From: a virus
Length of the DNA stretch: 41,103 nt
Strand: one strand, 5' to 3'
Virus record (IMG/VR): IMGVR_UViG_3300008117_000361
Coordinates: 1-41,103 of that record
The number at the start of each line of letters is the position of its first letter. The first letter of the stretch is position 1. The notes beneath the pieces are model-generated. The model did no database searches. It was not told the origin of the DNA and saw only the letters and a program-made list of their open reading frames with translations. This document shows positions 6,179 through 41,103 of this stretch, piece by piece. A program made the translations under genes and the position numbers.

Positions 6179-8410
6179 ATGTTAAATAAAATCTGGGAAT
6201 TTCCTTTAAAGATACAAAAGATAGATACTTCAAAAGAAGGTATTGACTATCAAGTATTTGAAAAGGAAGAGGATTTTGAAAAATATATAAGATCACAATT
6301 TAAACTTCCTGGAAAATATAATTTAAAAAATACAAGAAGATGGCAAGATGCAGGAATGCAATATGCAAATAGTGTAAATAAGCCAAATTTTGAAGGGGGC
6401 CAATATACAAGAGCAATCAAGGGTACTCATAAATATAAACAGTTTTGGGCAAACGAGAAAGAAAAAGTAAAGAATGGAGTTATTATAGACAATATCTATA
6501 TACCTCCATTTTATTATTGGTACCTAAACTTCTGTCCTATATACAATGATGTTGTAGGTAAAAAAATGTTTGGAAATGTATGGGATAGTGATCTTTGGTT
6601 CTTTCATTATATAACATTATGCATGGTAACTGGAAAACATGCATGTATAGTAAAAACTAGACAAAGAGGTTACTCTTTTAAAATAATGGCTCTTTTATAC
6701 TGGAGTTATTCTTGGTTTGAAAGTTCTGTAAATACAATTGGTGCATATAAAGAAGAATATACCGTAAAGTCCTGGAGATTCTTAGAGTTCTATAGAAAAC
6801 ATTTAAACTCAGGAGCAACTGCATGGAAGAGAGGTCCAATTGTACCAAAATCTTTAGAGTGGTATGAAAGAACTCCTCTTGTAGATGGTGGATATGTAGG
6901 ACTTGATAGTAAGTTATCTGCAACTACATTTAAAGTTTCACCTGAAAATGGTGTAGGTGGATCTCAAACAATATTCTTTTATGAAGAGGCAGGTGTTGCA
7001 CCTACATTATTACAAACAGTTGGTTACATTAGACCTGCACTTGAAAAAGGTAATAAAACTACAGGATTAATTATATGTTCTGGATCAGTTGGTGACTTAG
7101 ATGATGCAGAAGATATTAAAGAAGTATTTTATGATCCTGAATCTCATAATTTCTTAGGAATAGAAAATATATGGGATGATAATGAAATGAGAGGTAAACC
7201 ATGTGGACTTTTTGTTTCAGAAGCATATAATCTTGAAGGTTTTATAGATGAAGAGGGAAATTCTGATGTTGAGAAAGCAACAGAATTTGTATCTAAAAAT
7301 AATGAAGCTATAAGATCTAAGAAAAGAAAAGATCTTGCTCAACTTGATATATCTCAAAAACCACTTAGTCCAAAAGAAGCATTTGCACAAAGAAAAAGTT
7401 CTGAGTTCCCAATTGATGAACTTCTTGCACAACAAGAAAGAATAAAAATAAAGGATAAAGAGAATAAATGGAAATTTAAACCGATAAAGTGTGTTCTTGA
7501 GGAAGATGAATCAGGTAAGGTTAAATTAAAAACCAACAACCTTCCTGAAGAACATAGATATCCAATTGTACCAGATTGGGAAGATAAAAGAGGTGTTGTT
7601 ACAATTTATGAAATGCCCGAGGAAAATCCAAAATGGTTAACTAACTTTGCAGGAGTAGATACAGTTGAGGTAGATGTTACAACAACATCACATTCAGTTA
7701 TGTCTGTAGATATCTATAGGAGAATGGTAAGAGTTAAGTATAAGGATACAGATGGTAAGATAAAAACAAGAGTTGAGGGAGGGAAGATTGTAGCTACATA
7801 TAGAGGAAGATATAATCCAGTAGAAAAATCAAATGAACAAGCATGGTTACTTATAAAAATGTACAATGCGTTCAGTTATGTAGAAAGATCTAAACCAAAC
7901 TTCATAAACTATATGAAGAGAAATGGTAGAGCTGAAAGATATCTAGCAAAAGAGTCTGATGTACCAGTATTTAAAGATCTTAATGTTAACGCTGGATTAT
8001 CTGCATCAAACTATGGATTTATTATATCACCACAGAATAACATGTGGAAGATACTTAAGAGTAACATAAAAGAATATTTCCAGACAGAGTTTGATAGGAG
8101 AGAAAAAGCAGATGGAGAAGTTCTTAAAATATATAATGGAATAGACAGAACTGATGATTATTGGTTGATAGAGGAGTATATCAGATATAATGAGAAAGAT
8201 AACTTTGATAGAATTGTATCACATACTGCTGCAGTAACAATAGGTAAAGTCTATGAAAGTGAGTTTGGAATACCTACTATAAATGAGGTAAAAGAGGAAC
8301 CAAAAGAACAAATTTACATTCCTCCAAAAAAGATTTCAATGCTAGGAGGAGGGTCATATAAAAATTTAAACACAAACAGAAGATTTAAAAAATCTCATTC
8401 AATACTATAA
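6179..8410 (+). CDS. terL: Terminase large subunit (TerL)
   Basis: The 743-residue packaging motor has both expected domains. In the ATPase domain, the Walker A-type stretch KTRQRGYSFK is at 159-168 and the Walker B-type strand TIFFYEE at 264-270, with the catalytic acidic pair at its end. In the nuclease domain, an RNase H-like strand with FAGVDTVEVD near 488-498 supplies metal-binding Asp residues. The length fits crAss-like TerL proteins. The portal gene follows two bases after the stop. It pumps DNA into the empty head and cuts the concatemer. Confidence 0.9.
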   Translation: MLNKIWEFPLKIQKIDTSKEGIDYQVFEKEEDFEKYIRSQFKLPGKYNLKNTRRWQDAGMQYANSVNKPNFEGGQYTRAIKGTHKYKQFWANEKEKVKNGVIIDNIYIPPFYYWYLNFCPIYNDVVGKKMFGNVWDSDLWFFHYITLCMVTGKHACIVKTRQRGYSFKIMALLYWSYSWFESSVNTIGAYKEEYTVKSWRFLEFYRKHLNSGATAWKRGPIVPKSLEWYERTPLVDGGYVGLDSKLSATTFKVSPENGVGGSQTIFFYEEAGVAPTLLQTVGYIRPALEKGNKTTGLIICSGSVGDLDDAEDIKEVFYDPESHNFLGIENIWDDNEMRGKPCGLFVSEAYNLEGFIDEEGNSDVEKATEFVSKNNEAIRSKKRKDLAQLDISQKPLSPKEAFAQRKSSEFPIDELLAQQERIKIKDKENKWKFKPIKCVLEEDESGKVKLKTNNLPEEHRYPIVPDWEDKRGVVTIYEMPEENPKWLTNFAGVDTVEVDVTTTSHSVMSVDIYRRMVRVKYKDTDGKIKTRVEGGKIVATYRGRYNPVEKSNEQAWLLIKMYNAFSYVERSKPNFINYMKRNGRAERYLAKESDVPVFKDLNVNAGLSASNYGFIISPQNNMWKILKSNIKEYFQTEFDRREKADGEVLKIYNGIDRTDDYWLIEEYIRYNEKDNFDRIVSHTAAVTIGKVYESEFGIPTINEVKEEPKEQIYIPPKKISMLGGGSYKNLNTNRRFKKSHSIL

Positions 8411-23698: not shown

Positions 23699-23769
23699 GG
23701 AAGTATAGCCAAGCGGTAAGGCAGAGCTCTGCAAAAGCTTCATCATAGGTTCGATTCCTATTACTTCCT
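23699..23769 (+). tRNA. tRNA-Cys (anticodon GCA)
   Basis: A full cloverleaf of 71 nt: acceptor GGAAGTA with TACTTCC, a 3-bp D stem GCC/GGC, anticodon stem GAGCT/AGCTT with loop CTGCAAA and anticodon GCA at 23731-23733, and T stem ATAGG/CCTAT with loop TTCGATT. The discriminator base is T, as expected for tRNA-Cys. CCA is not encoded. It reads both Cys codons; the phage has many Cys-rich virion proteins. Confidence 0.92.
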
Positions 23770-23777
23770 CAAATAAA

Positions 23778-28557: not shown

Positions 28558-29081
28558 TGTTAGATTCACTAATACAATGGTTAACATCAATCATTGAACA
28601 TATATCTCCATTTGTTATTGTTAAACAGTATGAGAATGGAATACAATTAAGATTTGGTAAATACTTAAGAAGTCTTGAACCAGGTCTTTATATAAAGATA
28701 CCTTTTGTAGATGAGATATTAACACAACATGTAGTATTAACAACTTTAAGTCTACCTGCACAATCTTTAGTTACAAGTGATAATAAGAATATTGTAGTAG
28801 AGGCAATGGTAAAATATAAGATTACAGATGCTCAAATATTCTTACTAGAAGTATATGATTCTGTAGATGCAGTAAGTGATATATCTCAAGGTATAATAAA
28901 AGAGTTAATAATGTCTTCTACATGGGAACAGTGTAGAGATAATGAACTAGATAATGCTATAACAAAGAAAGTTAGGAATGAACTTAAGAAATTTGGGGTA
29001 TATGTAGATAAAGTTACATTAACTTCTATATCAGAAATAAGAACATTCCGCTTAATAAATCATTCAATTTTTACTCCTTAA
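28557..29081 (+). CDS. SPFH / stomatin-like protein
   Basis: The protein has 174 residues. A short hydrophobic N-terminus (about 4-22) leads straight into an SPFH domain: VKQYENGIQLRFGKYLRSLE (about 22-41), PGLYIKIPFVDE, then LPAQSLVTSDNKNIVVEAMV (about 63-82), and an alpha section with KKVRNELKKFGVYVDKVTL (about 141-159). These are the standard elements of stomatin/HflK-type proteins, which form membrane-bound rings. The long C-terminal coiled coil of the family is missing. The gene overlaps the ring gene before and the muzzle gene after it. Confidence 0.8.
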   Translation: MLDSLIQWLTSIIEHISPFVIVKQYENGIQLRFGKYLRSLEPGLYIKIPFVDEILTQHVVLTTLSLPAQSLVTSDNKNIVVEAMVKYKITDAQIFLLEVYDSVDAVSDISQGIIKELIMSSTWEQCRDNELDNAITKKVRNELKKFGVYVDKVTLTSISEIRTFRLINHSIFTP

Positions 29082-32000
29082 TGGCTGAAAATTTACAAAA
29101 TACTTCAAAGGTTGATCCAAATTCTCTTTCTAAACCAGCCTTACTAACAGATTTAAATTCTTCTTTTGTATCAAAAGAGCAATATTCTTTTGCTAGAAAT
29201 GCTGTGCGTAATTCTAAAGACGGAGATATAGGTACAATTGGAAATGAGCCATCTAACTTAAAGTGTTTTTCTGCACCCTATACTATATGTGGTGCAGTAT
29301 CATTACCTGATGATACAATAATGATATTTTCAGGAGATGGTAAAAATTCTGAGATAGGAATTGGTAATGAACTTGATTGCTCATATAAAAAATTATTATC
29401 TCTACCATGTTTAAACTTTAATCCTAAAAATCCCCCAGTTATTGGAGTTGCAAAAACAATGTTTCAAAAAGGAACAATTGTAACATTTACTGACAAAGTA
29501 AATCCTGTAAGAAGAATTGAAATAGATAGAGTTAGTGAAATAGATAGTTGTGATGATATTTTATTGTTTAGAAAAGTAAAACATCCATGCATAGAAATAA
29601 AAAAGTCTGAAAATGGAACTATGCCAAATGGAACTTATTCGGTTGCAATTGCATATTCTCTTGATAATCAAGTATTTACAGATTGGATGTCTCTAACTCA
29701 AAGAATTCAGTTATTTTCTGAGACAGAACAAAATGCACTTGATATAGTAATAAAAGATTTAGATACAAGTTTTGAATTCTATTCAATTGCTGTAGTTGGA
29801 TCATATATTGATCCTGCAACAAAAGGAACAACTAAAGCAGCAAAGATAATTGGTACATATTCTTCAGAGGCAAGAAGTTTAACAGTAACAGAATTTAAAG
29901 CTAGTACTGGTATTGCTATTGATATAAATTCATTAGTTGCTAAAAAAACAACATGGCAAAAAGCAGGTTTAATTTCATCTAATTCAAATTATCTTTTATT
30001 AGGAGATTTAGTATCTAGAGATGAAGAGGATTACCAGTTAAAAGCAATGTCAATTGAATCAGAGTATATAATTGAACAAGTTCCTTTAGAGTATTATGAA
30101 GATGGTGGAAATGATATAGGTTATTATGCTGATGAAAACTATGATTTTTATATTCAAGGAGTATATAATACAGGTGAGCTAACTCAAAGATATCATATAC
30201 CAGGACCTGTTCCTGATGATAATGCACTTACAATTGTATCAGGTGCAGATATTTATGAAAAGGACAAAAGATTTAAAGATTGTGAAGATAATAGACTATA
30301 TGCTAAATGGGAAATAGAAAATACTGCAGGTATACTTGAAAAAAAAGGAAACAGAGGATTTGTATGTGATAGAAGAATTTTAGGAACTGGTAAAATGGGT
30401 GTTTTTCTATCAACTGAATTATACCCCAATAATCCTAAAATGTTTGGTCAGTTTGCGAATACCCCTATAAGATATCATAAGTTTCCAGACGAAGCAATTG
30501 TACCAAGATACTCTGTAGTAAATGGAAAATATTATATAAATATAAAAGGAGTAAAATTTAAAAAAATACCAAAGTTTGATAATCCTGAAATAGTAGGTTA
30601 TAAGATAACTAGATCAGATAGAAAAAATGGTAATGGAACAGTTATTGCTAGAGGATTAATGACAAACGTAAGAAGTTACTTTGATCCTGGATATAAGCAA
30701 AATGTAATGTATTCAAACTATACAGTAAATGATTTAAATCCAGATGTTTATCTTTCCTCAAAACGTGTAAGTTTTAGAAATAAAAGTGAAAAAGGATATA
30801 CTCCTTTATCAACATTTCATTTAGATAGATTTAACTTTTATTCACCTCATACATCATTTGATCCTAAATATAGTCTTGGTCAAGAAATAAAAATAGAATG
30901 TGAAGAAATAGCAGATGTAACAGGGAACTTTGAAAAAGTACATAATCATCCTAGATTAAAATTATTAAATCAAATAGCATACTGGATAGCTGCTGTAGTA
31001 GGAATTATTGAAATGACTCTTGTTTTGTTTGGAAAAAATAAGGAAAAAGTAGCAGCAGATTCAGGAGAAATTACAGGTGGTACAAATAGTGGAAGAACAG
31101 GTAATTCAAGAGTAGAAAGTGAATTTAGTCTTACTGGGATTGAAGATCTTATAGGATTTGATATTGCAGGATATATTCAAGCACAAGCAGCTTCTACTGC
31201 TAGTATTTCTGGTGCAGCTAATGGTGCATCTAGATTATCAAGAGTAATAAAGAAAATCAAAACAATACTTGTTGTAATAGCTGCAGCAACTGTAAAAACA
31301 GGATTTGCATTTGTGAGAGGTGTTGCTGAAGCAAATAAAGTGATAGATACAATATATAATTTTTGTACGTTTACAGATTATGTATATCAATATAATGCAA
31401 AAGCTGTATTTAATAAAACTAAAAGAGTTAGAAAAGGAAATAGAAGAAGAAGATTACTTAGACCATTTGTTTATTTGCCATCTGATACTATTGGTATAGG
31501 AAATGATATATTTAATAATTTTCTAAGAGAGAAGAGTGTATATATTCAACTAAATAAAGAAATACCTCCAGCAACTACTGTAGATAATACAAGAAATACA
31601 ATATCAGGATTTGGATTATGCAATAATGTTGGATCTGCTGTTAGTTCGGTTGGATCTGCTTTTTATGTTACATCTAAAGCAAAAAATCCAAATCAGTATG
31701 GGTCACTTGGTAGTAGTAAAACAGTATCTATACACTCTTGTGTATTAAAGTTTGATGAAGAAGAAGACTTAACTAACTCGCCAATTTTATATGGTGGAGA
31801 TTGTATTATTACAAGATTTTATTTCATGAAAAAAATGCAGTTCTTTACTCAAAATCTTTCAAATGCAAATTTTCCAGATGGAGTAGAATATAATTATCAA
31901 ATGTACAGAAATATTGGATTTCCTAGATATTGGCTTGATTCAAATAGATTTGAAATAGCAGGATTTGTTGTACCACAGAATGTAATAACTGAACAAAGAT

Positions 32001-33733
32001 TTCTAGGATCTACTGATACAAAATATAATTTAGATTGTAGAAGATCTGATGATTGGTCAACTATTGGAAGAGTTAGTAACTCTTACATGTATTTATCAAA
32101 CAATTGTGCAGTTGAACTTATTGTAGAGTGTGACTATAATATAAATTTTAGAGATATTAAAACAAAAGAACCATTTTACTCAAAAGATAATAAAAATCTA
32201 TCTAATATTTTTAGATCTGATAGATTAAAAGTAGACGAAGAATTTAAAATAAGTAATGCTTATTTTGATATATATCCTACAGAGGTTGGATCTTTGCAAC
32301 AAAGACCTGATTTTGATCCAGAAAATAGAGTTCCATCAAAACAACCAAACTCTGTAATTTATTCACTTCCTTCATTTAATCTTCAAGAAGTTGATAACTG
32401 GCAATATTTTTTACCATTAAATTTCTTTTCATTTAATACAAGTGATTTTGGAAAACTTACTTCAATTAATAAAATTGATCAAGATAGATTACTTTTCTTA
32501 TTTTCCAAATCTTCTCCATATATTTCTATGGGAAGAGATTTCTTACAATTAGATAATACAGGAAGAAAGATTACAATTGGTGATGGGGGTCTATTTGCCC
32601 AAGATCCAAGAGAAATAATGCCAACTGATGATAACTTTGGATTATCTACTTCTAGATTTGCATTCTCAAATACCCACATGGGAAGATTTTATGTCTCTGA
32701 GAATCCGGGTAGAATTATGTCATTTGACCAAGCATTAAATGACATATCAATGTCTGGAATAGCTTTCTGGTGTCAAAATTACATGCCTATATTTTTATAT
32801 AAGTATTTTCCAAGTTATCCCAGGATTGAAAATCCAATATCTGGAGTGGGTTATCAAATGGTTATTGATAGTAAAGCTGAAACATTATATATTTGTAAAA
32901 GAGACTTTTCACCGGTAAAAGAGTTTGCAAAAGATATTGTATGGAGTGACAAATTGAATAGTTTTACTTATAAATCATTAAAAATAGAACTTTCAGATAA
33001 AAATTACTTTAATGATGTTTCTTGGACTATCTCTTATTCTTTAATGGATAAATCATTTGTGGGCTGGCATGACTGGCATCCAAATTGGGTTATACAAAGA
33101 GATAATAATTTTCTTACAGTAAAAGGAAAAAGTGTTTGGAAACATAATCATAGCTACGATAGTTATTGTAATTTTTATGGAAAAGATTATCCATTTGAAA
33201 TAGAATTTGTTTCATCTTCTGGACAACAAGTTGAGACAATTAGAAGTATAGAATATCTTTTAGAGGTATATAAATATAAAAATTTTGGAAGAGATAGGTT
33301 TCATGTATTTGGAGAAAACTTTGATAGATTAATTGTACATAATACTGAACAAATATCACCTCTATTAAATATTAATAAATCCTCACAAAACCCTGAAGAT
33401 AATCTAGAATTTCCTAGGAAAAGTAGTAAAAATTCCGTATCTTATGATATATTGTCATTCAAAGAGGAAAATAAATACAGGATAAATCATTTTTGGGATA
33501 CAGTAAAAGATAGAGGTGAATTTAATAATTCTGAGTTCCATTTATATCCTACAGATGAGAGTGGATATAAAAATGTAATTAATCCTTTAGCTATAGATAT
33601 AGATAAACCTGAAGAAGAAAGAAAGAAATTTAGACACTATTATAATAAATTCCGTTTTATAAAAACTGCATCTGGTCCAAATAAGTTTTTAGTAAAACTT
33701 GCTAACATTAAAAAACAAGTATCATTACGATGA
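29081..33733 (+). CDS. Tail tip protein, muzzle-like (giant)
   Basis: At 1550 residues this is the largest protein here. Its start overlaps the SPFH stop (TAATG). The N-terminal few hundred residues are beta-rich with repeated strand-turn units, as in tail barrels. Near 630-652 and 722-750 there are hydrophobic stretches (WIAAVVGIIEMTLVLFG, then ILVVIAAATVKTG) with a Gly/Ser/Ala-rich linker between. The rest is again beta-rich with many aromatic residues. Size, order after the ring genes and before the cargo genes fit the muzzle protein of crAss-like phages. The hydrophobic segments might insert in the host membrane at ejection. Confidence 0.7.
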   Translation: MAENLQNTSKVDPNSLSKPALLTDLNSSFVSKEQYSFARNAVRNSKDGDIGTIGNEPSNLKCFSAPYTICGAVSLPDDTIMIFSGDGKNSEIGIGNELDCSYKKLLSLPCLNFNPKNPPVIGVAKTMFQKGTIVTFTDKVNPVRRIEIDRVSEIDSCDDILLFRKVKHPCIEIKKSENGTMPNGTYSVAIAYSLDNQVFTDWMSLTQRIQLFSETEQNALDIVIKDLDTSFEFYSIAVVGSYIDPATKGTTKAAKIIGTYSSEARSLTVTEFKASTGIAIDINSLVAKKTTWQKAGLISSNSNYLLLGDLVSRDEEDYQLKAMSIESEYIIEQVPLEYYEDGGNDIGYYADENYDFYIQGVYNTGELTQRYHIPGPVPDDNALTIVSGADIYEKDKRFKDCEDNRLYAKWEIENTAGILEKKGNRGFVCDRRILGTGKMGVFLSTELYPNNPKMFGQFANTPIRYHKFPDEAIVPRYSVVNGKYYINIKGVKFKKIPKFDNPEIVGYKITRSDRKNGNGTVIARGLMTNVRSYFDPGYKQNVMYSNYTVNDLNPDVYLSSKRVSFRNKSEKGYTPLSTFHLDRFNFYSPHTSFDPKYSLGQEIKIECEEIADVTGNFEKVHNHPRLKLLNQIAYWIAAVVGIIEMTLVLFGKNKEKVAADSGEITGGTNSGRTGNSRVESEFSLTGIEDLIGFDIAGYIQAQAASTASISGAANGASRLSRVIKKIKTILVVIAAATVKTGFAFVRGVAEANKVIDTIYNFCTFTDYVYQYNAKAVFNKTKRVRKGNRRRRLLRPFVYLPSDTIGIGNDIFNNFLREKSVYIQLNKEIPPATTVDNTRNTISGFGLCNNVGSAVSSVGSAFYVTSKAKNPNQYGSLGSSKTVSIHSCVLKFDEEEDLTNSPILYGGDCIITRFYFMKKMQFFTQNLSNANFPDGVEYNYQMYRNIGFPRYWLDSNRFEIAGFVVPQNVITEQRFLGSTDTKYNLDCRRSDDWSTIGRVSNSYMYLSNNCAVELIVECDYNINFRDIKTKEPFYSKDNKNLSNIFRSDRLKVDEEFKISNAYFDIYPTEVGSLQQRPDFDPENRVPSKQPNSVIYSLPSFNLQEVDNWQYFLPLNFFSFNTSDFGKLTSINKIDQDRLLFLFSKSSPYISMGRDFLQLDNTGRKITIGDGGLFAQDPREIMPTDDNFGLSTSRFAFSNTHMGRFYVSENPGRIMSFDQALNDISMSGIAFWCQNYMPIFLYKYFPSYPRIENPISGVGYQMVIDSKAETLYICKRDFSPVKEFAKDIVWSDKLNSFTYKSLKIELSDKNYFNDVSWTISYSLMDKSFVGWHDWHPNWVIQRDNNFLTVKGKSVWKHNHSYDSYCNFYGKDYPFEIEFVSSSGQQVETIRSIEYLLEVYKYKNFGRDRFHVFGENFDRLIVHNTEQISPLLNINKSSQNPEDNLEFPRKSSKNSVSYDILSFKEENKYRINHFWDTVKDRGEFNNSEFHLYPTDESGYKNVINPLAIDIDKPEEERKKFRHYYNKFRFIKTASGPNKFLVKLANIKKQVSLR

Positions 33734-35874
33734 AAATGAGAAATGGAAAACCATGCATGAAGTGTGGTGGAAAAGTCAAATATGGAAAAGGTGGAAAATT
33801 ACCCATAATGCAAACAGCAGGGGGTGTACCTCCTAATTGTGAATCTGGATATATTCCAGTAGGAGATAAATGTATTCCTGCAAAAATAACAATACCAGAG
33901 AATGACTATTCGTTATATAATAAAAAAGATCCATTTACAGTAACTGGAGAAAACAAAAACCCATTTGGTATAAATAAAGATGGATTTTTTGCTCAAACAA
34001 AATGTGATGATCCTACATATAAATATGACTTTACATTAGGTAAATGTGTTCCAGATCCAGATAAAACAATGACTCTCCAAAATACTAAGATTGAAAATGG
34101 TAATTTGGTAAATAATGGAACCTTTACAATTCCTAAACCAGGCTCTGCGTTTAAGCAATCAATAGGAGGTTGTCCAGATGGTCAACAAAAAAATCTACTT
34201 ACAGGAAAATGTGAACCTATAGAAAAACCTAAAAATCCAGTATGTGAAGCAGGATATATATATGATGCAAAACAACGTAAATGTATAAAAGACAAAAAGA
34301 TTCCTGGAAATGTAGTATTAGAAAAATGGAATAGTCTTATTAACAATGTATCAAAATTATGGGCTAGTCATAGAGATTTTAATAATTATTACAATCAGCA
34401 GATAGATAGAATGAATCTTAGACAACCAATTCCTGATTGGGCAACTAATGAACAAAAACAAGTACCTCCTTATAACCCATATGTAAAAAAAGGAGGAATT
34501 ATAAATTTTAAAGAAGGGGGAACAAATATGAAACAGTCAATTACAAATCAGACAACAAAACCACCATATATAGGTGATTCAGTACAACTTCAATCACTTA
34601 GACAAAATATGCAGGGAAGGTTAATGGAATCCTTTTTAAAGGAAAGACTTCATGAAATACAAAATCCACATTGGATGTATGATGAAAAAACAGGAAATCT
34701 TATAAGACAAAGTTCTGCAATACCTTTCTATGATCCAAATAGGATCTACAAAGAAGCAAGTAGGCCACCATCTCGGTTTAGTCCTTTTCTGTCAAGACCT
34801 GATATAGAAGAAATGCAAAGACAGTCCTTTTTAAAGGAAAGACTTCGTGATCTACAAAATCCAAATATACCAAGTGGATATATGATACAAACTCAAGATG
34901 GACAAATGCCATATATTAAAAAGGTAGGTGGATTAACTAATAATAAAACAAATAACATGATAAAGATTAAAAAAGAGAACAAAGGAAAATTCACTGCTCA
35001 AGCACGAAGAGCAGGAATGGGAGTTCAGGAATTTGCAGATTATGTGCTAGGTAATCCAGATAGATTTACTGCATCTACAGTTAAAAGAGCTAACTTTGCA
35101 AAAAATTCTGCAGGTTGGAAAAAAGAATTTGGTGGTATGACACAAAACAATCCATATTATAGTTTCTATGCAGATGATAATTATCAAGATGGTGGACCAA
35201 TGCCAATGCAAGGTGGTGAACAACCTATGATGGGAGGTGAAGGTCAAGGTGGTCAGGATCAACTTCAGCAAATTATTATGATGATAGTTGAAGCACTTAA
35301 AGAAGGAATGTCTCCAGAAGACATCCTCGCAGCTCTTGTAAAAATGGGAATACCTGAAGAGCAAGCTGCTCAACTACTTCAAGCTGTAATTGAAAAACTA
35401 CAAGGTGGAGGAGGACAAGGACAAATGCAAGGTCAAGAAATGGAACAAGAAGGAGAATATGAAGAAGATGATGATGAAAATGAAGGAATGGGACAACAAG
35501 CAGCTCCTATGATGGCATATGGTGGACAAAAAATGCCAATTGGAATTGCACGTGCTAGATTTTCAGCAGCTGGAAATCTTGATAAACTTGATGATTATGG
35601 ATATGCTCAAGGAGGTGGACAAATGAAAGATGAAATGAACATGACTATTAAAGCTTATGCTCAGATGAAAAGAATTTCTCCAGAGGAAGTTATGCAAATG
35701 ATACAGCAACAGTTGCAATCAGTAAGTCCTCAACAGCAAGATCAGGCACTTCAAAGTATTATGCAGAGTATGCAAATGGAAATCAAACAAGGACAAAAAG
35801 GTGCAGAAGCAGGACAAATGCAACAAGAACAAGGAATGATGAGAATAGGAGGAATGAAAAACTACTATAGATAA
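33730..35874 (+). CDS. Large Gly-Gly-motif probable cargo protein
   Basis: The protein has 714 residues. It opens with CMKCGGKVKYGKGGK (9-23) and has four disulfide-like units, each from Cys to a Gly/Arg-Lys-Cys or Asp-Lys-Cys (Cys 37 to 48 is the first). Two copies of SFLKERL...QNP are 65 residues apart. Residues about 418-468 hold KGKFTAQARRAGMGVQEF followed by STVKRANFAKNS. Gln/Met/Gly-rich low-complexity helices fill the last 250. It ends MRIGGMKNYYR. Its start overlaps the muzzle stop (ATGA). In crAss-like phages proteins coded here are packaged in the head; that is assumed, not shown. Confidence 0.6.
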   Translation: MKMRNGKPCMKCGGKVKYGKGGKLPIMQTAGGVPPNCESGYIPVGDKCIPAKITIPENDYSLYNKKDPFTVTGENKNPFGINKDGFFAQTKCDDPTYKYDFTLGKCVPDPDKTMTLQNTKIENGNLVNNGTFTIPKPGSAFKQSIGGCPDGQQKNLLTGKCEPIEKPKNPVCEAGYIYDAKQRKCIKDKKIPGNVVLEKWNSLINNVSKLWASHRDFNNYYNQQIDRMNLRQPIPDWATNEQKQVPPYNPYVKKGGIINFKEGGTNMKQSITNQTTKPPYIGDSVQLQSLRQNMQGRLMESFLKERLHEIQNPHWMYDEKTGNLIRQSSAIPFYDPNRIYKEASRPPSRFSPFLSRPDIEEMQRQSFLKERLRDLQNPNIPSGYMIQTQDGQMPYIKKVGGLTNNKTNNMIKIKKENKGKFTAQARRAGMGVQEFADYVLGNPDRFTASTVKRANFAKNSAGWKKEFGGMTQNNPYYSFYADDNYQDGGPMPMQGGEQPMMGGEGQGGQDQLQQIIMMIVEALKEGMSPEDILAALVKMGIPEEQAAQLLQAVIEKLQGGGGQGQMQGQEMEQEGEYEEDDDENEGMGQQAAPMMAYGGQKMPIGIARARFSAAGNLDKLDDYGYAQGGGQMKDEMNMTIKAYAQMKRISPEEVMQMIQQQLQSVSPQQQDQALQSIMQSMQMEIKQGQKGAEAGQMQQEQGMMRIGGMKNYYR
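34630..34846 (+). repeat. 22-bp direct repeat inside the cargo gene
   Basis: TCCTTTTTAAAGGAAAGACT plus TC occurs at 34630-34651 and again at 34825-34846, exactly 195 bases (65 codons) apart and in the same frame. It codes the SFLKERL segment in both places; flanking bases are less alike. Confidence 0.85.
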
Positions 35875-37484
35875 TGAGTTTAATTTCAAAATTAGGGTAC
35901 TCTAGATTTTCACCATATCGAAATAGTCCATTTTTAGATATTAAATCTCCTAATGGACTTATTGATATGAATAATACTGATGTACCCTTACTTGGAATAG
36001 GACTAAATACTAAAAAGATAAAACTCTTGGAACCTAGATCAGGCATCCATTCTTTTCCTGGAGATGAAACTATAAGAGAAATTCCACTTACTCAAAATAG
36101 TATTAATTTAAATCTTCCTAAATTTAAAAATAAAGAAAGTAAAATTGTAAGTGTTAAACCATACATGTCTGGGTTTAATCCTCAACCTGGTATAAATATT
36201 CATGGACTTGGAGCAGAAACTTATTTAAATATTCTTAATGATAAAAAAAATAAATTAGGACTAACAGGAAATATTGAAACAACTTCTGTTGGTTATCCTG
36301 GTGGTGTGCAATTATTTGGCAAGCCACAATTTTCTGGCGGGTTTAGATTTACGCATACATTTAGAGATGGTGGAAAATATTTTCAACCTGGTGGATCTAT
36401 AACACTTACTACAACTTTACCACCGTATCTACAAAACAAATATCCTGTTACAAGTGATATTGCAGGAAGAGGAATGTCAGCTGGAACAAAAGCTGCTCTT
36501 CAACCTCAAATTAAAGAGGAACAAGCTGTTAAAGAAACAATGCAAAAAACAGGAGCAAGTAGACCTGTTGCTCAACAAATACGTCAACAACAAACACAGA
36601 GAAAATCAAATGTAACAGTTAGTCAAGATAATAGAACAGATTATGAAAAAAAAGTAGCTCAGGAAAAAGTAGATAATGTTAATAGATATAGAACAGAAGT
36701 ACTAGGTATTCCTGAAGGAACTACACAAAGAGATTTAGATGAAGCAAATAAGTATAAAGAAAGATTAGGTAGAATATTAAATGTTGGTTTGACAGCAGCA
36801 CCATTATTAGAAGGTGTACTTTCTTTAGGAGCTAGAGCAATACCAATGGCAGGTAGAGCTGCTAGTAGACTTGTAGCACCAACTGCTACATCAACAAGAC
36901 AAGCTACAATACAAGTATTTAATAGAAATACTAATATGTATGAAACTAGACTTGTTGATGTACCAGAACAGATTATACCAGGAAGATCATATGGAGATAT
37001 TGTACATAAAATGAAAAATCTTAGAAAAGATTTAAATATTAGTCTCCCTGAACACTATCTTAAAAAATGGTTTGGAGCAAGACCTATTTCTTTAGAAAGA
37101 GATAAAGGTTTAATAATAAGTCCAGAAGGAAGAATATGGGATTCAAATACAAGATATTGGTTAAATAGAGAATATGGAAATACACCTGATCCATTATCAC
37201 TTATTGGACCAAATGCTACTCAATATGCTAGAAGTTTTGGTAAAGTAATAAGTCAAAGTCCAGTTCAAACAATGCCAACAGGAAAACTTATATTTAATAG
37301 TACAATAGAAAATCAAGGAAAAACATTACAATCTGGAATATTTAATACAAAAGATCTTGGACAAATGATTCGTAACCCAAAACAATATTTTACTAAACCT
37401 GGAGGACCTCAAAAATTTGAAGTAAACTTTGATGAAATTTCTAGAATGAATAGAGGTGAAATAGATTTTACTTTTAGGAAATAA
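35874..37484 (+). CDS. Large Gly-Gly-motif protein, second in cargo run
   Basis: The 536-residue protein starts on the stop of the preceding gene (TAATG). Residues 1-170 are beta-rich, ending FRDGGKYFQPGGSITLTTTL (about 163-182), the shared Gly-Gly motif plus Thr run. A Gln/Lys-rich helical section follows (about 205-280). A hydrophobic Ala/Gly segment is near 303-333 (LTAAPLLEGVLSLGARAI) and a globular C-terminus closes it. The hydrophobic segment resembles one in the last gene of the window. Not recognised as a known enzyme. Confidence 0.6.
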   Translation: MSLISKLGYSRFSPYRNSPFLDIKSPNGLIDMNNTDVPLLGIGLNTKKIKLLEPRSGIHSFPGDETIREIPLTQNSINLNLPKFKNKESKIVSVKPYMSGFNPQPGINIHGLGAETYLNILNDKKNKLGLTGNIETTSVGYPGGVQLFGKPQFSGGFRFTHTFRDGGKYFQPGGSITLTTTLPPYLQNKYPVTSDIAGRGMSAGTKAALQPQIKEEQAVKETMQKTGASRPVAQQIRQQQTQRKSNVTVSQDNRTDYEKKVAQEKVDNVNRYRTEVLGIPEGTTQRDLDEANKYKERLGRILNVGLTAAPLLEGVLSLGARAIPMAGRAASRLVAPTATSTRQATIQVFNRNTNMYETRLVDVPEQIIPGRSYGDIVHKMKNLRKDLNISLPEHYLKKWFGARPISLERDKGLIISPEGRIWDSNTRYWLNREYGNTPDPLSLIGPNATQYARSFGKVISQSPVQTMPTGKLIFNSTIENQGKTLQSGIFNTKDLGQMIRNPKQYFTKPGGPQKFEVNFDEISRMNRGEIDFTFRK

Positions 37485-37499
37485 ACTAAAGAGAGATTA

Positions 37500-38657
37500 A
37501 TGAATTATAATAGTAATTTATATAAACTTTTTAGAAATATAAAACTTCAAGGGGGTGGAGGTGGTTCTTCATTGACTACAACAACAACAATAGTTCCTTT
37601 ACAACAAAATATAATTTGGCATACTCCAGGTACAGGTGGTTTAAATTACTTAGCCAGAAGAACAAATCTAACAGGAGATATAAGTAATAGATCTATAAAA
37701 GAAAATACTCCAATCCCTACTTCATTTAAAGACATAGACTTTTTAAATAATTATGCTGAATTTAAAAAGGCATTTAAAAATGTACCAGATGATTATAGTC
37801 CAACATTTGTACCAATAGAAGGTGATAAACACTGGAATATAAAAAGATTTGCTATACAGCCTCATTTAAGTACAGAAATGGGAGACTTAAATGTACAAGG
37901 TTCTACACCTGAGCAACTTAAAGCAAATGTTCTATCTGATATGTACGAATATTATCTTCTACAAAATCAGGGAAATAGAAATAAATCATTTAGACAAGCA
38001 AAAAGATTTTTACGTGGAAATATTAATCCAATATTAAGTGGTCCATTTTTGAATGAGTTTATAAATGCTGATAATACACCAAACTTTGGTCTAATGGATC
38101 CTGTAAATACATTTGCTGATCAAAATCCTATAAAAGTTTTAGAGTCATATAATAAAGCTTTCAAAGAATCTGAAGGAATGAAATTGTATAGACCTGGTTA
38201 TAATCCAGATATGTGGAATCTTGAAAAGCTTAAAGGTATAACAATGGACTATTTGAAAAATTATAGAAATATGTCAAATAGAGAGTCAAAAAAACTATGG
38301 AAAAAATGGGAGAATGAAACAAAAGATCAAGTAAATAGTAAAGTAGGTAGTCCAAAAACAGGTCTTTCATATGATATAAGTTCAGAGGAAGCTTTTTATA
38401 ACTCACCTATTTTTCAAAATCCTACAATATTTGCAAAACCAAGAACTAATCAAAAAATATTATCTGGAGCAAATAGAATGGTAGAATGGATAGGAGAAGA
38501 TAAGCTTCCTCATAGAAGATTATTTCCAAATATGGCAGAGGCAGATTATTTTATGCAATATTTAACAGACGAAAAAAAGTCATTTGGTACTAGTATTTCA
38601 AATAGAGGAATTCTAAATCAAGACGATAGAAAAGAATTTAAATTTGGAGGGTATTAA
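37500..38657 (+). CDS. Gly-Gly-motif protein, third in cargo run
   Basis: The 385-residue protein has a short basic start and then KLQGGGGGSSLTTTTTIVP (about 15-33), which resembles the GGSITLTTTLPP region of the preceding protein. The remainder is mixed helix with many Asn and Tyr, no membrane segment and no catalytic motif that I can see. The final residues are KFGGY, placing a Gly-Gly motif at the extreme C-terminus. The gene begins 15 bases after the upstream stop and ends 11 bases before the next start. Confidence 0.6.
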   Translation: MNYNSNLYKLFRNIKLQGGGGGSSLTTTTTIVPLQQNIIWHTPGTGGLNYLARRTNLTGDISNRSIKENTPIPTSFKDIDFLNNYAEFKKAFKNVPDDYSPTFVPIEGDKHWNIKRFAIQPHLSTEMGDLNVQGSTPEQLKANVLSDMYEYYLLQNQGNRNKSFRQAKRFLRGNINPILSGPFLNEFINADNTPNFGLMDPVNTFADQNPIKVLESYNKAFKESEGMKLYRPGYNPDMWNLEKLKGITMDYLKNYRNMSNRESKKLWKKWENETKDQVNSKVGSPKTGLSYDISSEEAFYNSPIFQNPTIFAKPRTNQKILSGANRMVEWIGEDKLPHRRLFPNMAEADYFMQYLTDEKKSFGTSISNRGILNQDDRKEFKFGGY

Positions 38658-38668
38658 ATTATATATTT

Positions 38669-40285
38669 ATGGTATATAGAAATACATCATTAACAAACAT
38701 TACTACTAAAAATCCTAAAGTAAATTATATCTTTACTGAACACAGCGATGGACCTTTTCTTGATGAGGCTAATGATCTGAAAACATTTTTAGCAAAATAC
38801 TATCCAGAAGAGCAAGTACAAGTAGTAGGTGGATATGGTAAAGATTTTTTTAATAAACAGGTTACACCTATCTTAAAAAATCAAATTGATAGCAATGATA
38901 GATTTTTTCTATTTGGACATCATGGATCTATGTATGCTGGTACTCCAAATAACAGATGGGGAGAACTACTTGAACTTGCACAAAAAAGAGCTGGACCTTT
39001 TAATTGTTATTTAGGTAGTTGTTTTTCAGAAGACTTATTTTTAAATCCAGAAAATCGAAAAAGAAATGAGAAGTATGGTGAACCTCCTGTGTTTGATAAA
39101 GTTGGAAATTTTTATTACAGGCCAACAAATGCATGGTTAGGTGTAAATCCTAATGCACCTAAAGGTAAAAATTCTGATGAAGGTATATTAGGAGCTATGT
39201 TTAGTACTACTTCTGGTAGTCCTGAAATTAATATAGAGGAAATTTTTGAATCAATGACTGATCTACGTTCTAAAATACGTAATGATTTTAGAGAAAAAAA
39301 TAAAAAAATATTTGAAGAGTTTGAAAATTTTAAACCTGAAGGCAAAACACGAGAAGAAGTAAATGCACATCTTAGAAAAAGAAATGAACTTTTTAAGGAA
39401 GAAGAAAAAATTATTAATTCAAATAAACAATATAATAAATTGAGAACTGCATATCAAAAATTTCATAATCCTTATATACAAGGATCTTTAAGAGAGGGAT
39501 ATGACTACTCGTCTAGTACTAGCCTTCCAAAATTTACAACTCCAACTATTGGAGATAGACAAGCAGTCTATTACCAAAAAGGTGGGTTTTTTAGAAATCT
39601 ATTTGAAGGTGTTGGAGATTTCTTTAAAGGTATATTTAGTGGAAAAGGAGGCAGAGGAAGTTTTGCTTGTCCTGGAGATGTATGTAGTCCTGGAAAAATA
39701 AGATTTGAAAAAACTGGAAGAAGTAAATTTAGAGAGTCTATATCAAATTTATTTAAAGCTAATGAAAACTCTACGTCACCAACTCCTGTTAAAGAAACTA
39801 CATCATCAAACATTGTCAAAGAACCCAAATCATCAGGTAGTACAGGTATTGATAGAAGTGTTCCTGAGTGGGAAAGAGTAGTACCTTTCAATGATCCTGA
39901 AAAATATCCAGTAGCTGGACATCGTGCATGCTATGATGATTTCGGAAATCCTTTACCTTTCTGGTATGATGAAAATGGAGTACTTGTACCATGTGAGACA
40001 TCTCCTTTTCCTAGAATTTCAATTACTAATTATTATAATACACCAAATAATAATATACCAAATAATCCATACCAAAACATCACTGTACCTACAGATAATA
40101 ATCAAGACATATTTATTCCACAAAAAACAAGTACTGTCTATGAGGATGCAATAGTTCAAAGTCCTGAAGCAAGAGGTGCTGGATCATTTGATATGCAAGG
40201 TAACTTTAGTTCTTTTCAAGGAAATCTTGCTAGATATGGTGGAATAAGAACTCCTAATAAAAGAAAAAAATTTAGAAGTTACTAG
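38669..40285 (+). CDS. Gly-Gly-motif protein with caspase-like N-terminal domain
   Basis: The 538-residue protein has clan CD cysteine peptidase features at its N-terminus: a first strand (VNYIFTEHSDG), a helix, then FFLFGHHG with His 85-Gly 86 and FNCYLGSC with Cys 118. A hydrophobic strand ending in His-Gly and another ending in Cys is the signature of caspases, gingipains and CHAT domains; the His-Cys spacing of 33 resembles gingipain. Residues about 185-255 form a charged helix. Near 303 comes YYQKGGFFRNLFEGVGDFF. It ends RYGGIRTPN plus a basic tail. Protease activity is inferred. Confidence 0.5.
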   Translation: MVYRNTSLTNITTKNPKVNYIFTEHSDGPFLDEANDLKTFLAKYYPEEQVQVVGGYGKDFFNKQVTPILKNQIDSNDRFFLFGHHGSMYAGTPNNRWGELLELAQKRAGPFNCYLGSCFSEDLFLNPENRKRNEKYGEPPVFDKVGNFYYRPTNAWLGVNPNAPKGKNSDEGILGAMFSTTSGSPEINIEEIFESMTDLRSKIRNDFREKNKKIFEEFENFKPEGKTREEVNAHLRKRNELFKEEEKIINSNKQYNKLRTAYQKFHNPYIQGSLREGYDYSSSTSLPKFTTPTIGDRQAVYYQKGGFFRNLFEGVGDFFKGIFSGKGGRGSFACPGDVCSPGKIRFEKTGRSKFRESISNLFKANENSTSPTPVKETTSSNIVKEPKSSGSTGIDRSVPEWERVVPFNDPEKYPVAGHRACYDDFGNPLPFWYDENGVLVPCETSPFPRISITNYYNTPNNNIPNNPYQNITVPTDNNQDIFIPQKTSTVYEDAIVQSPEARGAGSFDMQGNFSSFQGNLARYGGIRTPNKRKKFRSY

Positions 40286-41103
40286 TGCGTAATAGAAAAA
40301 ATATAATACAAAGATTCAAACCTGGCGGTAAAAAAAATGACTGCGAAGAAGGATTTTTTAAAAATTCAGAAGGTCAATGTGTACCAATAGTACCTGATTT
40401 TACTGAAACAAAAGATGGAATGATTTACTATAGTGGTAAACCATATAAAAAAGGTAGACAAGATAAAAAAGGTCAATGGACACTAATTGATCCTAAAACA
40501 AATCAAGAATTTACTACTTTAAATGAGGTTACTGTATATGCTGATCCAACAGAAAGAAAATATGCTGAATTTATAAATTCAATGCGTGATCAGTATGAAA
40601 GTGGACTTTACCCAAATATTACTTATAATTATCTTACAGGCGATATTGATAATGATAATGTTGAATGGAGAAATTATGGAAGAGCTCAAAAATCTCCTTA
40701 TGCAACGTGGGCTGAATTTGAACGAGCTGCAGCAAGAAGAATGAAAAGAGAAAATGAAGGTCAGCAAGAACAGAGACGTGAAGAAATAATACAAAATGCA
40801 CCTACAATATCTCAAGCTGGACCAAAACGTCCTACATGGGAAAAAGGACTTGCAATTGCTACTCATCCACTTACTGCTTTTGGATATAGTGTTAGAGGAC
40901 AATGGGATCAGATGCCAGATTATTTTGAAAAGGGAGATGTAAATCCTTTTGATAGAGCAATTCAAGCTACAGCTGCACTTGCAGGATTGCGCGGAGTAGC
41001 TCCATATTTAAGTGCACCTGCTGTTATAGGATCTAGAACTATTCCTTGGCTTACAGGTAGTAATTTATTATGGGGAACAGGTGCTTACTTAAGTGGGGAT
41101 CAA
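40285..41103 (+). CDS. Partial Gly-Gly-motif protein, fifth in cargo run
   Basis: The frame is open from GTG 40285, which overlaps the upstream TAG, to the end of the window: 273 codons, and the gene continues beyond. It begins RFKPGGKKNDCEEGFF with a second Cys and CVP soon after, copying the Gly-Gly plus Cys-unit start of the gene at 33730. A charged middle follows. The last 60 residues shown are hydrophobic and Ala/Gly-rich (IQATAALAGLRGVAPYL). It is probably another packaged protein. No ATG start is near; GTG is assumed. Confidence 0.55.
   Translation, partial: MRNRKNIIQRFKPGGKKNDCEEGFFKNSEGQCVPIVPDFTETKDGMIYYSGKPYKKGRQDKKGQWTLIDPKTNQEFTTLNEVTVYADPTERKYAEFINSMRDQYESGLYPNITYNYLTGDIDNDNVEWRNYGRAQKSPYATWAEFERAAARRMKRENEGQQEQRREEIIQNAPTISQAGPKRPTWEKGLAIATHPLTAFGYSVRGQWDQMPDYFEKGDVNPFDRAIQATAALAGLRGVAPYLSAPAVIGSRTIPWLTGSNLLWGTGAYLSGDQ

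Follow-up and report, generated by a model that had tools for sequence, protein, structure and literature searches.

A Short Gly-Gly Tag Marks the Edges of Injected-Cargo Modules in a Crassvirus-like Phage and Its Relatives

Results

Gene Order and Features of the Locus

The window, that is, the whole stretch of 41,103 nt analysed here, belongs to a crassvirus-like phage and is a 41 kb contig from an IMG/VR virus record. Crassviruses rank with the most abundant viruses of the human gut. Their tail-tip gatekeeper is the muzzle protein. In the window, a terminase gene (at 6179), a portal gene (8413) and a major capsid protein gene (12538) precede the muzzle gene, which matched two PHROG families of virion structural proteins, 37948 (E 6e-40) and 15100 (E 4e-27). 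Gene 33730 immediately follows the muzzle gene, and the window stops short of any polymerase gene. Five relatives were retrieved by a muzzle search. The muzzle gene adjoined the tagged genes on their upstream side in all relatives fetched with it and anchored the position of the cargo block. The order was muzzle, tagged genes and giant genes in the longer relatives G002, G003 and G005. The genes that separate the muzzle gene from the giant RNA-polymerase genes were shown to encode modular ejection-cargo proteins of the C1 (gp45) type. Those of the window are listed here with their features.

29081-33733, + strand: muzzle protein gene
33730-35874, + strand: cargo gene 1, 714 aa, C1/gp45-like, 16 Gly-Gly and about 8 good tags, C-terminal end MMRIGGMKNYYR
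33781-33795, + strand: tag YGKGG, cargo gene 1
34483-34497, + strand: tag VKKGG, cargo gene 1
34507-34521, + strand: tag FKEGG, cargo gene 1
34954-35118, + strand: small domain in cargo gene 1 (aa 409-463, phrog_20603, IKIKKENKGKFTAQA...KRANFAKN..W), common to gp45 aa about 374-424
35122-35136, + strand: tag KEFGG, closing the small domain (WKKEFGGMTQNNPYY), kept in L012 as WKKEYGGMTMNNPYY
35182-35196, + strand: tag YQDGG, cargo gene 1, conserved in a relative
35512-35526, + strand: tag MAYGG, cargo gene 1
35602-35616, + strand: tag YAQGG(G), cargo gene 1
35839-35853, + strand: C-terminal tag MRIGG, cargo gene 1, conserved in a relative (MRAGG)
35874-37484, + strand: cargo gene 2, 536 aa, variable payload behind a conserved leader module
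35874-36089, + strand: leader module of cargo gene 2 (aa 1-72), LGYSxxSPYxNxPFLDIxxPxGLIDMxNT...
36360-36395, + strand: double tag FRDGGKYFQPGG, cargo gene 2, then SITLTTTLPP (junction signature, recurring in cargo gene 3 and G001)
37392-37406, + strand: tag TKPGG (FTKPGG), cargo gene 2, with the C-terminus 27 aa downstream
37500-38657, + strand: cargo gene 3, 385 aa, terminating exactly at a tag (EFKFGGY, then stop)
37542-37556, + strand: N-terminal tag-like KLQGG(GGG) and SSLTTTTTIVP, cargo gene 3
38637-38651, + strand: C-terminal tag FKFGG, cargo gene 3
38669-40285, + strand: cargo gene 4, 538 aa, GHHGS...LGSCFS in an alpha/beta region at the N-terminus, followed by a tagged, probably disordered region
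39572-39586, + strand: tag YQKGG, cargo gene 4
40229-40243, + strand: near-C-terminal tag ARYGG, cargo gene 4
40285-41103, + strand: cargo gene 5, GTG start, runs off the contig end
40315-40329, + strand: N-terminal tag FKPGG, cargo gene 5

Several Gly-Gly pairs at positions 495-561 of the first cargo protein lie inside a Gln/Met/Gly-rich stretch and are poor tags. TonB-box-like stretches (TLNEVTVYADP and LPEVIVKARS) occurred in two cargo proteins only (40285-41103 and L012:15079-16896), and this motif was rejected as a systematic feature. The right half of the window had no DNA-level match to a GenBank phage. The structural region of the window also holds a tRNA-Cys gene (23699-23770). Relative G002 (L013-L014, L018) carries TerC-, TerD- and TerF-like genes of the tellurite resistance type, PvcA/DIT1-like genes and a subtilase gene (G002:103614-104294).

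Enrichment of the Tag in the Cargo Genes

The sequence-only reading had described a repeated motif, an aromatic or basic residue, one or two further residues and Gly-Gly, in five neighboring proteins. All motifs that it listed were found in the ORFs of cargo genes 1 to 5. This loose pattern matched 20 times in the five proteins compared to 7.3 times in shuffles, in which residues were permuted within each protein and the composition was kept; none of 2000 shuffles reached 20. Elsewhere in the window, 13 matches were found and 13.5 were expected. For the tighter form [FYKMLH][KQR]xGG, the window had 10 matches in the cargo (0.9 expected) and 1 elsewhere (1.4 expected). The five proteins were unlike one another, as had been proposed, but they contained modules in common with relatives.

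The informative position was the one two residues before the first Gly. In six genomes, this position was Lys or Gln in 54% of the Gly-Gly pairs of the cargo and in 7% of those elsewhere (Lys: 29% versus 5%, p 5e-13; Gln: 25% versus 2%, p 2e-15). Tyr, Phe, Met or Lys tended to occupy the residue before this Lys or Gln. Post-muzzle genes of the same six genomes contained 5.8-11.7 Gly-Gly per 1000 residues compared to 3.3-4.0 elsewhere. Since bare Gly-Gly occurred at normal density outside the cargo (35 in 10,547 aa), the specificity resides in the context of the Gly-Gly.

The refined motif derived from the relatives was [Tyr/Phe/Met/Lys/His/Leu]-[Lys/Gln]-x-Gly-Gly. The six deriving genomes had 44 matches to [FYMKHL][KQ]xGG in 11,768 cargo residues and 7 in 180,489 others; 44 of the 51 matches were thus inside the post-muzzle block, which makes up 6% of the coding sequence. 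Because these genomes had suggested the pattern, the count was repeated in six other genomes. There, 50 matches in 15,218 cargo residues stood against 22 in 212,845 others (32-fold, binomial p 7e-42), with ORFs called mechanically, most genomes metagenomic and related genomes not being fully independent counts. The cargo block of these genomes was defined by its position after the muzzle gene, for which the large gene upstream was taken in G008 and G009. The motif was not equally frequent in shuffled sequences or in non-cargo proteins; it was enriched in the cargo in both tests.

The cargo proteins are richer in Gly than the others (8.9% versus 5.6%), which would fit an origin by chance, composition or an assembly artefact. 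This explanation was excluded by the shuffles, the out-of-sample genomes and the conservation, and we consider its probability negligible. The Gly codon pairs of the tags matched background codon use, and a DNA-level element behind the tags was therefore rejected. Such ordinary codons indicate that selection acts on the protein and that the signal is a protein-level one.

The proposed placement of tags close to the C-terminus was confirmed. Gly-Gly was present in the last 20 residues of 10 of 20 cargo proteins and of 43 of 501 others (p 4e-6). The same bias was seen in the independent genomes (7/17 versus 35/650, p 3e-5).

Position of the Tags at Module Boundaries

Of 26 distinct copies of the small domain, 20 had a Gly-Gly at most 5 residues upstream and 21 had one at most 7 residues downstream; 16 had both. 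Cargo gene 3 (385 aa) shared 77% identity with residues 1-378 of a G001 protein. At the same tag, the window protein stops with EFKFGGY and the G001 protein runs on as EFQIGGSVTITTT... into a further module. The 72-residue leader of cargo gene 2 was N-terminal in four phages; it was internal in G002, between KKQMGG and PYQMGG. In the protein family of L016:5798-7834, "QxxKxGGxxxNPY" and the C-terminal Gly-Gly were invariant, while the linker of well over 100 residues after the first tag was almost without an invariant column. These data showed that a selected short linear motif, placed at variable junctions and at C-termini, bounds the modules of the post-muzzle proteins. A short tag of approximately Tyr/Phe-Lys/Gln-x-Gly-Gly marks the edges of injected-cargo modules in the window and eleven related genomes and is almost absent from other proteins.

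In two predicted models, both of them weak, the tags were in low-confidence segments, and the tag-bearing junctions are probably disordered. This would fit flexible hinges without a recognizing partner, in which Gly-Gly with polar or aromatic neighbors is simply the favored linker for unfolding and threading via the portal, and ejection needs partial unfolding (PMC10172136). However, Lys/Gln at -2 and an aromatic residue or Met at -3 were specific and recurrent across 12 genomes, the giant RNA-polymerase proteins also must thread, yet lack the motif, and C-terminal tags join nothing. Pure hinges are insufficient to explain the conserved Lys/Gln and aromatic residues, and we regard this reading as rather improbable.

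Two longer elements were observed next to tags. The junction signature GGS[SVI]x(1-2)TTTT[IR]VP follows tags in the window and G001 and opens several different modules (L012:16889-19429; window 36381-36420 and 37554-37600). An acidic helix-like element, GGxSxxDxxxFLFDDE, recurs after some tags in G002, G005, G006 and G010 (L016:4326-5789, L048:9986-12742, L121:5902-9969 and L021:1165-3975).

Relation to Crassvirus C1 and Tag Dialects

A search with the small domain yielded 49 loci. Its alignment was similar to that of crassvirus C1 (gp45 of ΦcrAss001 and relatives) in a profile-profile comparison (hhalign E 9e-12). This is the independent test: the finding that alignment A2 matched gp45 in the PDB was discarded as circular, since A2 contains gp45. 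The domain was also present in annotated crassviruses including DAC15 and Rudgehvirus jaberico, where it is in the gene after the muzzle. Cargo gene 1 and C1 (PDB 7qog, 7qol, 8ckb) thus have the phrog_20603 domain, many Gly-Gly tags near it and the place next to the muzzle gene in common. In contrast to C1, the window has further tagged genes with extra payload modules downstream and prefers Lys/Gln over Ala at -2, and the match to gp45 comprises the small domain only; gp45 outside this domain was not matched by the window proteins. The idea, by eye, that the L016:5798-7834 family (679 aa, G002) corresponds to the second half of gp45 was supported neither by profile comparison nor by fold search. 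The leader module was not found in bacterial genomes.

ΦcrAss001 gp45 has 20 Gly-Gly. Among 33 carriers of the leader or the small domain, counted without redundancy, Gly-Gly occurred at 12.6 versus 3.1 per 1000 residues. The preferred tag form had Ala, but also Lys or Gln, at -2, preceded by an aromatic residue or His at -3. Judged from these sequences, there seem to be two tag dialects, [FYH]AxGG ([FYH]-[AKQ]-x-G-G) in gut crassviruses and [YFMK][KQ]xGG in the group of the window.

The annotated virion structural protein gp41 of the marine Cellulophaga phage phi17:2 contained FQAGG, YQNGG, FQIGG and FQSGG. A signal acting after ejection, for example a tag recognized by a host envelope or periplasmic protein during cell entry, would need a general partner to account for this related motif, and no host partner is known. 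The genes are of the ejection-cargo kind, and one G002 payload module resembles an M15-type peptidoglycan peptidase/endolysin domain, which is in line with such a role; nevertheless, we give it very little weight.

Cargo Proteins with and without Tags

Giant RNA-polymerase proteins are virion cargo in ΦcrAss001 (PMC10172136). Those of the surveyed genomes were essentially without tags. The proteins gp45 and gp46 (C2) are both present in ΦcrAss001 virions (PMC10172136); the virus of the window is uncultured. In gp46, there is a single Gly-Gly and no good tag, so an ejection protein can do without the tag. Together with the essentially untagged polymerase proteins, this means that the tag is a mark of C1-type ejection cargo and payload genes and not of all cargo. 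The shared signal suggested by the sequence-only reading is supported as a selected signal in cargo genes, in view of its occurrence in 12 genomes including the window, its conservation around hypervariable linkers, the bracketing of modules and the ordinary codons. It is not supported as a general signal for packaging into the capsid, since the polymerase proteins are essentially untagged.

Evidence for and against Proteolytic Processing

The adenovirus protease cuts (M/I/L)XGG before the next residue X, and P4 can also be Gln or Asn (PMC4246237). The tags have the same register: Gly-Gly is in virion core proteins, and the specificity residue is at equal distance. A protease that cuts after Gly-Gly and converts modular cargo ORFs into separate proteins, as in adenovirus, is a serious rival, although on balance we find it somewhat unlikely. 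It would fit with a module whose ORF is free-standing and closes with a tag in the window, while in G001 a tag joins it to the rest of a longer ORF, with the common occurrence of closely spaced double tags and with the caspase-like Cys/His pattern of cargo gene 4. The P4 preference is strong but different, with Lys/Gln (also Ala) in the tags instead of Met/Ile/Leu.

No common Gly-Gly protease family was found among those sought in 17 genomes. Peptidase C39 gave no match, while its positive control was detected; C48 gave no match either, but its control was also silent, which makes this result uninformative; subtilase (S8) was present in 1 of the 17. The gp45 model of residues 425-552 spans the Gly-Gly at 427-428 and 434-435, as judged from the published residue range, and one site is apparently uncut. 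The authors treat gp45 as a single chain linking tail and capsid (PMC10172136). Moreover, cuts at tags with just 1-3 residues beyond (EFKFGGY, LYKYGGKSK) would be pointless, and the caspase-like gene was not found in relatives. The processing proposed before is thus possible but weakened.

In cargo gene 4 (38669-39590), GHHGS and LGSCFS are about 35 residues apart, like the His/Cys dyad of caspase/CHAT-type (clan CD) proteases. A caspase-like protease is unproven: model confidence was low (pLDDT 44), and we found no significant fold match, no relatives and no PDB sequence match.

Discussion

Like processing, docking on the portal or tail is a possible role of the tag. We infer, tentatively and at somewhat under an even chance, that the tags work as repeated docking and spacing peptides, by which extended ejection proteins are held within the portal and tail lumen; this is the reading we favor. 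With its aromatic/basic part, the tag would attach to a site that recurs along the inner wall of the virion, on the portal wing, a tail-barrel ring or a capsid protein; the Gly-Gly would be a flexible joint. The cargo chain would be loaded during assembly and kept stretched from the capsid to the tail barrel; at infection, its modules would thread out one after another. The RNA-polymerase cargo would take some other loading route.

Two segments of gp45 are placed in ΦcrAss001: residues 425-552 at the portal wing, to which they bind, and residues 214-245 as a lining of the tail barrel. The whole chain is considered to span some 420 A between capsid and tail (PMC10172136). The gp45 tags at 209, 427 and 562 are at the edges of these segments, flanking or adjoining them, which supports docking and spacing. 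So do the post-muzzle enrichment in deriving and independent genomes, the near absence of the motif from the giant RNA-polymerase-type proteins, the bracketing of the small C1 domain and the joining or ending of modules exactly at tags (gene 3 versus G001; G002 leader). The invariant tags around hypervariable linkers in the L016:5798-7834 family, the low-confidence segments of the two models and the background codon use are also consistent with it. On the other hand, the polymerase proteins are packaged without tags, one or two tags would be enough for docking, yet some proteins have at least 10, gp46 has no good tag, and both supporting models are of low confidence.

As a possible but doubtful extension, the tags could form a generic peptide code, in which any domain between Tyr/Phe-Lys/Gln-x-Gly-Gly tags would be loaded into the particle and kept in the portal/tail lumen until it is delivered, or cut free, as one unit, with payloads freely swappable between crass-like phages. 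If the code is generic, chosen proteins could be loaded into laboratory phage particles.

We file the tag among the targeting, docking or processing peptides of virion cargo. Encapsulin cargo-loading peptides are short, usually C-terminal and mark proteins stored in an HK97-type shell (PMC8346489). The tags are also short, and the C-terminal bias described above agrees with the terminal position. They differ from encapsulin peptides in sequence, in their many copies and in their internal positions, and binding of the tags to a shell is hypothetical. Unlike cargo-loading peptides, they are not on all stored cargo, as the giant RNA-polymerase-type proteins are untagged. The tape-measure protein gpH of phage lambda, a tail-lumen protein, has two similar motifs (FATGG/YATGG) near its C-terminus, but homology is unsupported. 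The tag motif was absent from the tape-measure proteins of 80alpha, TP901-1 and P2 and from the T7 internal core proteins. The idea of a general tape-measure-protein motif was rejected, as it was found in lambda gpH only.

Searches of the open-licence literature, including the ΦcrAss001 structure paper and a Crassvirales review, turned up no mention of such a motif, although absence there is no proof. Our results point to a signal, not described before, by which injected cargo would be loaded, held or processed. The tag bears on the question of how crassviruses choose several megadaltons of cargo protein, keep it in place and eject it. With a motif that marks ejection cargo, the cargo set becomes predictable from sequence. 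The motif also indicates which contacts to seek in existing cryo-EM maps, and the choice between protease and docking is directly testable.

Parts of the system occur more widely. The small C1 domain occurs as a small protein without tags in Synechococcus phage S-EIVl and in a virus assigned to Methanofastidiosa (L108:11947-12165 and L109:11947-12285). Near free-standing copies of the domain, minus-strand proteins of 138-283 aa with 5-10 Gly-Gly were observed (L086:6717-7133, L091:60-845, L103:5373-6224, L104:5455-6234), several of these Gly-Gly in tag context (FKAGG, KHQxGG). In Leptolyngbya phage Lbo-JY46 (L046:32845-37809), a muzzle gene of the crassvirus type (26% identity over 83%) precedes genes in a similar order. 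Based on this muzzle gene, a crassvirus-type lineage may reach into cyanobacteria.
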